NCBI GenBank assembly: GCA_011039385.1
Contig: DRBO01000033.1
Coordinates: 1-32,784 of the forward strand
Direction: 5' to 3'
Length of the DNA stretch: 32,784 bases
Source of the DNA: Chloroflexota bacterium
GTDB taxonomy: Bacteria; Chloroflexota; Anaerolineae; Anaerolineales; UBA11858
In this document: one piece after another, positions 30,072 through 32,784 of the stretch
Layout: the number at the start of each line of letters is the position of its first letter
How positions within the stretch are numbered: the stretch's first letter is position 1
Made by a program: the position numbers and the translations under genes
Notes under the pieces: generated by a model
The model's input: only the letters and a program-made list of their open reading frames with translations
What the model was told of the DNA's origin: nothing
Databases searched by the model: none

Positions 30072-30875
30072 ATGGATAGATACCTCGTAAAACCCGGGAA
30101 ACCTTTGAACTTAAACCTATGGGACCCAAATGACAAAAGCCTGTTCCCAATCAGCAAGAAAGAGGGCAAAAAAAAGCTCCGCGAACTCAATCAAGAGCTG
30201 GAAGCCCTGCAGGAACTGCTCTTCGCAGAAGGCAAACATAAGGTCCTGATCGTCTTGCAAGCCATGGACACCGGCGGCAAAGACGGCACCATCCGGCATG
30301 TCTTTGAGGGAGTCAATCCCCAGGGCGTGAAAGTTGCCGGTTTCAAGGTCCCTACTTCCAAAGAGCTAGCCCACGATTACCTTTGGCGGGTGCACAAACA
30401 CACGCCCGGTAAGGGGGAAATCGTGATCTTCAACCGCAGCCATTACGAGGATGTGCTGGTAGTGCGGGTCCATAATCTGGTCCCTGAAGAAATCTGGTCC
30501 CGGCGCTATGAGCACATCCGGGCTTTTGAAAAGACCCTGGCTGAGGAAGGCACCACCATTCTGAAATTTTACCTGCACATCAACCGGGAAGAGCAGAAAA
30601 AGCGCCTGCAGGCCCGTCTGGACGAACCCCACAAGAATTGGAAATTCAGCCAGGGGGATCTGGCGGAAAGGGCATTATGGGACCAATACCAGGCAGCCTA
30701 TGAAGACGCGCTGATAAAAACCAGCACAGACAATGCTCCCTGGTATATCATCCCTGCCAATCGCAAATGGTACCGCAACCTGGTGGTTTCAACGATCATC
30801 ATAAACAAACTAAAAAGCCTGAAAATGGCTTATCCTGAACCAGAAGAGGGACTGGAAGGGATTGTCATTGAATAA
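30072..30875 (+). CDS. PPK2 family polyphosphate kinase
   Basis: The 267-residue enzyme transfers phosphate between polyphosphate and nucleotides. It has a Walker A site in MDTGGKDGT (65-73), a Walker B region IVIFNRSHYED (117-127), and the lid segment ARLDEPHKNWKF that binds the chain. The length and the opening PISKKEGKKKLRELNQELEALQ fit the polyphosphate:nucleotide phosphotransferase (TIGR03709-like) group, single-domain PPK2 enzymes that phosphorylate AMP or ADP. Which nucleotide is used cannot be read here. AAGGAAAAG precedes the ATG. The CPBP protease gene starts at or just after its stop codon. Confidence 0.93.
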   Translation: MDRYLVKPGKPLNLNLWDPNDKSLFPISKKEGKKKLRELNQELEALQELLFAEGKHKVLIVLQAMDTGGKDGTIRHVFEGVNPQGVKVAGFKVPTSKELAHDYLWRVHKHTPGKGEIVIFNRSHYEDVLVVRVHNLVPEEIWSRRYEHIRAFEKTLAEEGTTILKFYLHINREEQKKRLQARLDEPHKNWKFSQGDLAERALWDQYQAAYEDALIKTSTDNAPWYIIPANRKWYRNLVVSTIIINKLKSLKMAYPEPEEGLEGIVIE

Positions 30876-30876
30876 T

Positions 30877-31599
30877 ATGATGGATGAACCAACCCCTCCC
30901 GAGGGGGAAATCCAGTCCACTCGATCCCGTGTGCCCTGGACCACCCGGGATGTCTGGGTTGGCCTGGCCCTGTTCCTGGCCTGGCTGCTGGTTTCCCTGG
31001 GTTTTGGGATTGCCAGGGAAGCCTATGCCTGGGAATTTGATTTTGGGCTGTTCCTGGCCCTATGGGAACTGATGCTGATCATTCCCACCTGGTTATTGAC
31101 CATTCGCAAATATAAGCTCCCCTGGCGATCCCTGGGTTTGAGGAAATTCGACCTCACCACTGTGGCCGTCGGCTGCGGGCTGATGATCTTCTCCTTTATC
31201 TTTAACTTTTTCTACAACCTGGTCTTGCTGTTCAAAGGCATCCACTCCCCTTTCGAGATCGAAGGGCTATTTCATACCGCCGCTTCACCCTGGTTGATCT
31301 TTCTGACAGGCATCATCATCGCCCCGTTGGTTGAGGAGATCTTCTTCCGGGGTTTTCTTTATACCGGGCTGCGGGAAAAATATGGCTGGATGGCAGCAGC
31401 CTTGATCAGCGCTGGCCTGTTTGCGGTTGTCCACCTCCAGCCCATCACCATTCCCCCCATATTTCTGATGGGTTTGATCTTTGCTTATCTCTATCAGCGC
31501 ACAGAATCTATCTGGCCGGCGGTGATCATGCACTTTGCTACCAACACCCTGGGATTGGCGGCAGCATACGCGGTTTCGCAATTAGACTTCCTATCATAA
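30877..31599 (+). CDS. CPBP family intramembrane glutamic protease
   Basis: The 240-residue protein has about six to eight hydrophobic segments and the CPBP (CAAX protease and bacteriocin-processing) motifs: EEIFFRGFLY (E153, E154, R158), the His of VVHLQP (H186), and HFATN (H219). These residues form the glutamate-type active site in the membrane. The substrate is unknown. Start choice is open: I use the ATG at 30877, but a TTG at 30868, which overlaps the PPK2 stop, has better spacing from the GGAAGGG at 30854-30860. Either way it is coupled to PPK2. Confidence 0.9.
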   Translation: MMDEPTPPEGEIQSTRSRVPWTTRDVWVGLALFLAWLLVSLGFGIAREAYAWEFDFGLFLALWELMLIIPTWLLTIRKYKLPWRSLGLRKFDLTTVAVGCGLMIFSFIFNFFYNLVLLFKGIHSPFEIEGLFHTAASPWLIFLTGIIIAPLVEEIFFRGFLYTGLREKYGWMAAALISAGLFAVVHLQPITIPPIFLMGLIFAYLYQRTESIWPAVIMHFATNTLGLAAAYAVSQLDFLS

Positions 31600-31638: not shown

Positions 31639-31704
31639 CTGTCCACTTTTCAAGCTTAAACTGTCCAGTTTTCAGGTTTAAACTGTCCACTTTTGAATTT
31701 TAAA
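31639..31704. repeat. Three contiguous 22-bp direct repeats
   Basis: Units at 31639-31660, 31661-31682 and 31683-31704 each begin CTGTCCA, continue with (C/G)TTTT, and end in TTAAA or TTTAAA. The first ten or so bases are nearly invariant and the second halves drift. There is no gap between units, and the array ends 20 bases upstream of the -35 box at 31725. The 285-base gap around it (31600-31884) holds no gene. Confidence 0.8.
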
Positions 31705-31724
31705 TAACAGGCAAGCTCAAATAT

Positions 31725-31753
31725 TTGACTTCTCACTATCCGTTACCTATAAT
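31725..31753 (+). promoter_or_regulatory. Near-consensus promoter of the lipoprotein gene
   Basis: TTGACT (31725-31730), exactly 17 bases, and TATAAT (31748-31753). The predicted leader to the GTG at 31885 is about 125 bases, AT-rich, with no clear riboswitch or terminator-like fold. Confidence 0.8.
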
Positions 31754-31884: not shown

Positions 31885-32784
31885 GTGATCAGGAACCAAA
31901 AAAGCGCCTTGTTTGTTATCTGCCTGGGTTTGATCATGCTTATCTGCCAGGCATGCAGCCAATCGCCCAGTCCATCTGAAATATCATCCGCGCAAACCAG
32001 CCAACCGGACAGCTCTGATCAACCCTATCAGCCGGACAGGGCCGATCAAACGGTAGAGGATGTCAGAGAAGCCATGGTATTTGTCGTTGACCCCGACTAC
32101 AACCCGATCCCCAACGCGGTGATCGGCATCAACGGGAACTATACTGACATGTCTGGTGTCTTCTACGGCGAAGTCAAGGCCAATGACTCCGGCTGGGTGC
32201 CTGTCCAGGCCCTCGGCTATGTGACCAACTACGCCAAACCCAGCCCTTACAGCGGGGAATATGATTTGTATTTTGTCACCCTGGCACCGGTAGATGCCGG
32301 GTTTTATTATCAGGAGACATCAGAAACACATCTCCAGCTGGGTGACCAGGATTCGCCCAACCTAGCAGTGGATCTTGAACCAGGAGCTCTAACAGGACAA
32401 GAAGGGTTCCTTGAACTGACCGAGATCGACCCCCGGGAAATCTGCATGGATGATGCCTGGGCAGAGCTTGATAATCCTTATGGCGCTATTCTCTCCTTTG
32501 ACATCAGCGCCTGGGATCAGGATGGCGAAGCCATCAACCTGGCGGAAAACAAAACAGCCGTTGTATCCATTACGGATGATGAGCACGATGTTAATGATCT
32601 GGTCCTCCAATCCTTTGATCCCGAGAGCGGTGCCTGGATCGACCAGGAAGGGGCATGCACACGGTTGGATAGCGAGACAATTCAGTGTTCCCTGAACCAC
32701 TTCTCAATGCATAATTTCATGGATAAAAATCTTGAACCCTGGCAAATGGGAAGTCAAGAAATTGTTGACTTCAGAAACCGTTAT
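31885..32784 (+). CDS. Putative lipoprotein, cut by the window edge
   Basis: A frame of 300 codons runs open to the right edge. It starts at a GTG 4 bases after GAGGAGGG. The N-terminus (RNQKSALFVICLGLIMLICQAC, about 3-24) is a lipoprotein-type signal with a Cys at 24 after Ala, though the -3 position (Cys) is not ideal. A Ser/Gln/Asp-rich linker follows, then a beta-rich part (AMVFVVDPDYNPIPNAVIGI, about 64-83; carboxypeptidase-regulatory-like by appearance). Near 190-280 the pattern LTEIDP, FDISAWDQDG, VSITDDEHDVNDLVLQSFDP and CSLNHFSMHNF resembles extracellular domains that end in a C-x-x-HFS motif. The mature protein would face outside. Function is unknown. Confidence 0.8.
   Translation, partial: MIRNQKSALFVICLGLIMLICQACSQSPSPSEISSAQTSQPDSSDQPYQPDRADQTVEDVREAMVFVVDPDYNPIPNAVIGINGNYTDMSGVFYGEVKANDSGWVPVQALGYVTNYAKPSPYSGEYDLYFVTLAPVDAGFYYQETSETHLQLGDQDSPNLAVDLEPGALTGQEGFLELTEIDPREICMDDAWAELDNPYGAILSFDISAWDQDGEAINLAENKTAVVSITDDEHDVNDLVLQSFDPESGAWIDQEGACTRLDSETIQCSLNHFSMHNFMDKNLEPWQMGSQEIVDFRNRY

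Follow-up and report, generated by a model that had tools for sequence, protein, structure and literature searches.

A solo end of a decayed IS1202-type insertion sequence ahead of a lipoprotein-like gene, and apparent fixed-register insertion of its group at sigma-70 promoters

Introduction

Why should three contiguous 22-bp repeats stand directly ahead of the predicted promoter of a lipoprotein-like gene? The question is raised by a stretch of 32,784 nucleotides of a Chloroflexota bacterium (assembly GCA_011039385.1, contig DRBO01000033.1), analysed at its full length and called the window here. The first-pass annotation had offered two answers, an operator for a regulator of the lipoprotein gene or a solo transposon end of the IS21 type. 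We argue that the choice between operator and relic is a false one, because the relic appears to adjoin the promoter for the reason that the element inserts there. Our main reading, to which we give a probability of about 90%, is that the array is the left end of a degenerated insertion sequence (IS) of the IS1202 family, from the group with long target site duplications (TSDs), and that this group inserts in a fixed register at sigma-70 promoters.

Our literature search turned up a single study of this IS family, that of Harmer, Pong and Hall 2023 (PMC10132070). According to it, the hallmark of the family is a DDE transposase in which Q replaces K/R seven residues past the catalytic E, and the ends are 5'-TGT...ACA-3', with an imperfect TIR of ~24 bp and additional binding sites. 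The TSD of the IS1202 (long-TSD) group is given as >15 bp in the abstract and 16-28 in the table, and for the short-TSD branch targeting of dif was published. The target of the long-TSD branch was left open, the independent insertions being too few (PMC10132070).

Results

The repeat array and its surroundings

Tandem Repeats Finder placed positions 31639-31704 as the top-scoring tandem array of the window (period 22, 3.0 copies, 84% matches, 0 indels), with a score of 97 versus 48 for the runner-up. The second and third copies each share 86% identity with copy 1, and the core TGTCCASTTTT, searched for over the whole window, occurs at three sites, all of which are array copies. The geometry described in the first-pass annotation was confirmed in both respects, namely three contiguous 22-bp repeats and an array ending 20 bases before TTGACT-N17-TATAAT (31725-31730 and 31748-31753). 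These 20 bases consist of five terminal bases of the element (31705-31709, TAACA) and 15 further ones (31710-31724). The features are as follows.

30862-31599, plus strand: CPBP/Rce1-type CAAX protease gene (Pfam PF02517, E 2.9e-25), stopping 39 bp short of the array
31639-31709, minus strand: left (transposase-proximal) end, now solo, of a decayed long-TSD IS of the IS1202 type, with no transposase remaining
31639-31660, minus strand: terminal repeat copy 3, 22 bp, innermost, reading CTGTCCACTTTTCAAGCTTAAA on the plus strand (Tandem Repeats Finder)
31661-31682, minus strand: terminal repeat copy 2, 22 bp (Tandem Repeats Finder and copy comparison)
31683-31704, minus strand: terminal repeat copy 1, 22 bp, outermost (Tandem Repeats Finder and copy comparison)
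31705-31709, minus strand: outermost five bases of the IS end, TAACA (read on the minus strand as 5'-TGTTA), with the terminus at 31709
31710-31724, no strand: 15 bp GGCAAGCTCAAATAT from the terminus to the -35 box, equivalent to the TSD, which is the same interval in intact copies
31725-31730, plus strand: predicted -35 box TTGACT of the target promoter (from sequence and from the fixed position in related ends)
31748-31753, plus strand: predicted -10 box TATAAT of the same promoter, after a 17-bp spacer (from sequence and the promoter logo)
31885-32784, plus strand: lipoprotein-like gene with a GTG start, running off the contig end and predicted to be driven by the target promoter (from sequence and homologues)

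About 70 bp of the IS end is all that survives in the window. Its terminus reads 5'-TGTTATTTAAAA on the minus strand, and the left-end pattern TGTNATTTAAANTTNAAAAGTGNAC, used below for the collection of related ends, fits 31685-31709 with 0 mismatches. Truncation of the lipoprotein gene is a matter of the assembly only and the gene continues on contig C65, since window positions 32662-32784 and G000:C65:9986-10108 have ~123 bases in common.

The same end on mobile elements

Exact 30-34-bp patterns of the array, run against genome and viral collections, returned either nothing or a single locus. This sole match in the public collections, L007, lies in a Saccharicenans MAG and is an internally deleted IS of 396 bp (TGTTATTTAAAG...GCTAACA), which has array repeats at both ends, the start of a transposase gene inside and a perfect 15-bp flanking duplication. 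The tip TGTTATTTAAA and the terminus AAATAACA are common to L007, the window and a further end of the window's own MAG (C3, see below), and the shared terminus shows that the relic of the window stops, on its outer side, at 31709.

A 67-residue fragment from L007, used as the query against genomes of the L007 class, led to full-length relatives with transposases of 417-421 aa, TGT/ACA tips and at least two AAAAGTGNAC-type repeats at the left end. Intact elements, all in genomes other than that of the window, measure ~1.55-1.59 kb, contain a single transposase ORF and are flanked by 15/16-bp target duplications; examples are L022 (1587 bp, 15-bp TSD GAAAATTTTTTGACA) and L014 (1552 bp, 16-bp TSD TAAGTTAAATCCTAAA). 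The layout of three 22-bp repeats is also found on the left end of L026, and in L100, L102 and L104. Since intact mobile elements in other genomes have this end too, the array is not a chance repeat, a candidate that was discarded on the array score as well as on the recurrence of the end in other genomes.

Family assignment

The NCBIfam ISNCY model NF033594 matched the transposases of all 12 relatives (best 2.7e-44), and the score of L022, 148.7 bits, is under the curated cutoff of 250 bits. ISNCY was the best model for these proteins (under the curated cutoff), followed by IS481, and IS21 models scored weakly; a search by sequence gave no PDB match. Plasmid relatives are annotated as ISNCY, and one of them as IS1202-like. 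Residues D154, D215, E268 and Q275 are invariant in an alignment of the transposases of the 12 relatives, the window itself having none. TGT...ACA ends with extra repeats are present in L022, L014 and L007, and the window retains TGTTATTTAAAATTCAAAAGTGGACAG and two more repeats. In a tree of 13 long-TSD versus five short-group plasmid sequences, built without ISfinder type sequences, the long-TSD clade was split from the short-TSD ISAjo2 group with support of 100/100. The TSDs that were measured, 16 bp in L014 and L098 and 15 bp in L022 and L007, are at or just under the published lower bound. The window has lost the second copy of its TSD.

Because of the invariant D, D and E with the Q signature, and of the 15/16-bp TSD, we assign the element to the long-TSD group of the IS1202 family. 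IS21 is excluded by the 15/16-bp TSD, the single transposase ORF and the weak scores of the IS21 models; thus the earlier suggestion of a transposon end with multiple terminal repeats stood, and its attribution to IS21 did not. Judged by its sequence, the array belongs to one end of a decayed long-TSD IS of the IS1202 type, where the 22-bp units are the presumed binding sites of the transposase.

Copies in the same MAG

The MAG of the window (1.92 Mb, 181 contigs, 84.6% complete) contains four solo ends, on contigs C7, C3, C60 and C98, and three of the four are exactly 15 bp from TTGAC: the window end precedes TTGACT, and the C60 and C98 ends precede TTGACA. The end thus recurs at three other sites of the MAG, with a different promoter beside each, and intact elements exist in other genomes.

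At C3, where a near-copy of the array (C3:6686) precedes a GntR-type gene, TTGACA lies 31 bp from the terminus, because a 16-bp unit has been duplicated. Two tandem ~16-bp copies CCAATTTCAAATGACA are located outside the solo end at this locus (L008 6703-6770), followed by TTGACA, and they equal the tip TGTCATTTGAAATTG that a second element subfamily has in C60 and C98. The arrangement suggests that insertions at a single promoter were nested or partly excised. The C98 end (L115, about 340-435) consists of three repeats of ~22-25 bp, 15 bp upstream of TTGACA, and a methionyl-tRNA-synthetase-like gene lies downstream of it.

Transposase searches of this genome found no transposase of the IS1202-type clade in the MAG, and searches with the transposase fragment gave zero matches in the same genome, in plasmids and in viral contigs. 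Therefore, the copies in the MAG are fossils, or intact copies are absent from the assembly.

Position of the ends relative to promoters

On the outer side of the left ends of the full-length elements, TTGAC recurred at a distance of 15 or 16 bp. For an unbiased test, left ends were collected with the pattern TGTNATTTAAANTTNAAAAGTGNAC, allowing up to two mismatches and taking no account of the flanks. Matches were present in 29 of 141 genomes of the L007 class, where control matches were rare, and in nine of 396 genomes of the window's class, with zero control matches. When internal repeats and similar flanks had been taken out, 70 non-redundant left ends were obtained. TTGAC begins 15 bp from the terminus in 30 of them, 16 bp in 19 and 17 bp in two (51/70 in total), and occurs only twice at other offsets in the 60-bp flank. 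Shuffled flanks gave a mean of 0.18 and a maximum of three TTGAC at 15-17 in 2000 rounds, compared with the 51 observed. The register was seen in independent phyla, as 20 of the 22 ends from the window's own class have the motif at 15-17, and many more such ends come from the Saccharicenans class. In a second set, nearly all located via the transposase rather than via the end, 13 of 15 main-clade ends are 15/16 bp from TTGAC or TTGAA. Most of these data come from metagenome assemblies, the ISfinder types (IS1202, ISSeq2, ISTde1, ISHahy13 and the Vibrio/Shewanella members) being outside the sample.

Aligned on TTGAC, the 51 flanks have A at position 6 in 90% of cases and a -10 element of composition T88 A98 T52 A76 A37 T80 at spacing 17, preceded by the TG of an extended -10, and most of the spacer carries little information. 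A match to TATAAT of at least 4/6 at spacing 17 was found in 44 of the 51. On the evidence of their letters, the aligned flanks are complete predicted sigma-70 promoters, TTGACA-17-TATAAT with a TG extended -10, and not a hexamer alone. Moreover, the interval between terminus and TTGACA equals the TSD exactly in L007 (15), L014 (16) and L022 (15), so that the two cuts are 15-16 bp apart, and the one nearer the promoter coincides with the upstream edge of the -35 box.

A built-in outward promoter, forming part of the IS end, was considered and discarded, because the 15-16 bp before TTGAC and most of the 17-bp spacer are nearly free of information, the downstream genes differ, and in L007 and L014 no TTGAC comes after the far-side copy of the TSD.

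The array might instead be an operator, bound by a regulator of the host that governs the lipoprotein gene together with a small regulon. Its contiguous 22-bp spacing directly ahead of a good promoter would suit such a role, and the other copies in the MAG precede promoters too. However, the same array forms the end of complete IS copies with TSDs, the 15/16-bp register agrees with the TSD, and the genes downstream of the targeted promoters are unrelated, both within and across genomes. Conservation of the array ahead of orthologues of the lipoprotein gene, which had been named as a mark of an operator, was likewise not seen: there is no array-like match at five distant homologues (25-31% identity; order-wide, two of the same genus), among which true orthologues were possibly missed. 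We therefore regard an operator as extremely improbable.

Recognisable transposase was absent from the vicinity of 43 of the 51 promoter-adjacent ends in a single-query tblastn, by which divergent remnants may be missed, and the inner sequence was shorter than 1 kb in 11 of the 51. In some genomes (G456, G467, G468, G469 and G470; L045, L049-L052, L068-L085) as many as eight solo ends stand at different promoters and lack a recognisable transposase in their vicinity, which is an unusually large number of one-sided fossils.

The predominance of solo ends without transposase is what one would expect if insertion were random or weakly biased, and ends were kept only upstream of promoters by selection acting on the promoter side. 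Survival alone would, however, produce a broad range of distances rather than a fixed 15/16 bp, and copies with transposase and TSD keep the same register, with the edge of the TSD exactly at the -35 box; this explanation is very unlikely to account for the data. Nevertheless, retention of solo ends near promoters may add to the register signal, because most ends are solo. Directed insertion at promoters is thus well supported, the targeting itself being deduced from the sequence patterns.

Exceptions and the short-TSD control

TTGAC at 15-17 is absent from 19 of the 70 left ends. Several of these have TTGAAA, TTGAGA or TTGTGA in the same position, and L029 has TTGAC at 21 bp; some exceptions are degenerate, and others may be unrelated matches or real insertions elsewhere. 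The sample consists mostly of metagenome assemblies with promoters predicted from sequence, and includes few copies with both ends and a clean TSD. A divergent subgroup (L036 and L037, in G489 and G464), of about 28-29% identity and with AAAGTAGAC end repeats, also has a ~15-bp interval ahead of TTGACA; the orientation rule is not that of the main clade, since the promoter of L036 adjoins the right end.

As a control, four short-TSD loci (L129, L130, L131 and L133), on plasmids of Leisingera, Sagittula, Sphingomonas and Lichenicola, were inspected. Their TSDs of 5 bp adjoin dif-like sequence, and none of them has TTGAC at 15-16. This agrees with the published dif targeting, which these loci on alphaproteobacterial plasmids appear to widen past the hosts in the published table (PMC10132070).

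Discussion

We propose the following sequence of events for the arrangement found in the window. Elements of this group integrate, mostly in one orientation, with the left end 15-16 bp short of the -35 hexamer, and the 15/16-bp duplication arises from a staggered cut that is bounded on one side by the upstream edge of this hexamer. As the downstream promoter remains intact and the gene is still expressed, the insertion is tolerated. Later decay removed the transposase and the right end, while the promoter-side end was kept.

The landmark read by the transposase may be either promoter-bound RNA polymerase (through sigma region 4 or alpha-CTD) or the promoter DNA itself. We give an even chance to the possibility that the transposase recognises the complex of sigma-70 RNA polymerase with the promoter, probably sigma region 4 at the -35 box or alpha-CTD immediately upstream of it, and cuts 15-16 bp apart at its upstream edge. 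This is favoured over recognition of the bare hexamer because the -10 and TG elements are enriched, although they lie ~20 bp or more from the cut. That the transposase reads TTGACA-like DNA by itself is possible, and we hold it tentatively: the -35 box is the strongest signal and adjoins the cut, and a DNA-binding domain could recognise it. Enrichment of a -10 at a spacing of exactly 17, and of TG, speaks against such reading of the hexamer, though part of this enrichment could result from survival of insertions beside working promoters.

A separate problem is whether the relic, once left behind, was co-opted, so that its AT-rich, helically phased repeats would serve the lipoprotein promoter as an upstream activating element. 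Their location just upstream of about -50, with A/T tracts at two-turn spacing, and the persistence of solo ends would be consistent with such a function. On the other hand, the copies have decayed to varying degree, and we consider co-option unlikely.

In the literature searched, with coverage mostly outside subscription papers, no IS is described as promoter-targeting, and we know of none with this property. To that extent, the target preference of the IS1202-type long-TSD group was previously unrecognised, and the flank statistics provide a concrete and directly testable answer to the question of its target. An element that lands in a fixed register and does not disable the promoter would have a clean safe-site strategy, here in bacteria. 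Its solo ends could easily be annotated as false "operator arrays", as happened in the window, and in genomes whose promoters are difficult to recognise each of them flags a sigma-70 promoter that is likely to be active. If the promoter complex is indeed the landmark, protein-DNA complexes of the host would be the target throughout the family, XerCD-dif in one branch and promoter complexes in the other, and the long-TSD group would be a bacterial counterpart of promoter-targeting retrotransposons.

Comparison with known systems

The elements described here resemble the IS1202 long-TSD group in their TGT...ACA ends, extra end repeats, long TSD and only one transposase, a DDE enzyme of ~400-500 aa that has Q at E+7; they differ in the fixed-register sigma-70 promoter, whereas no conserved target was reported for that group (PMC10132070). 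ISAjo2-type short-TSD members have a related transposase and ends, and also insert at a fixed distance and in a fixed orientation from a landmark, in their case 5 bp from a dif/XerC site, but they produce 5-bp TSDs, target dif and form a separate clade. TGT ends with multiple terminal repeats are shared with IS21, which in contrast to the one transposase and 15/16-bp TSD found here has an istA/istB pair and a 4-8-bp TSD. Terminal arrays of binding sites are likewise a feature of TnsB-type transposition of Tn7, and the transposase of the family was modelled on TnsB by Harmer, Pong and Hall 2023 (PMC10132070). Partners of the TnsA/C/D kind, however, were not seen with our elements. The yeast retrotransposons Ty1 and Ty3 insert at Pol III promoters; they are unrelated retroelements and serve as an analogy only, the likeness being insertion just upstream of promoters, with the transcription machinery as the landmark and the gene spared.
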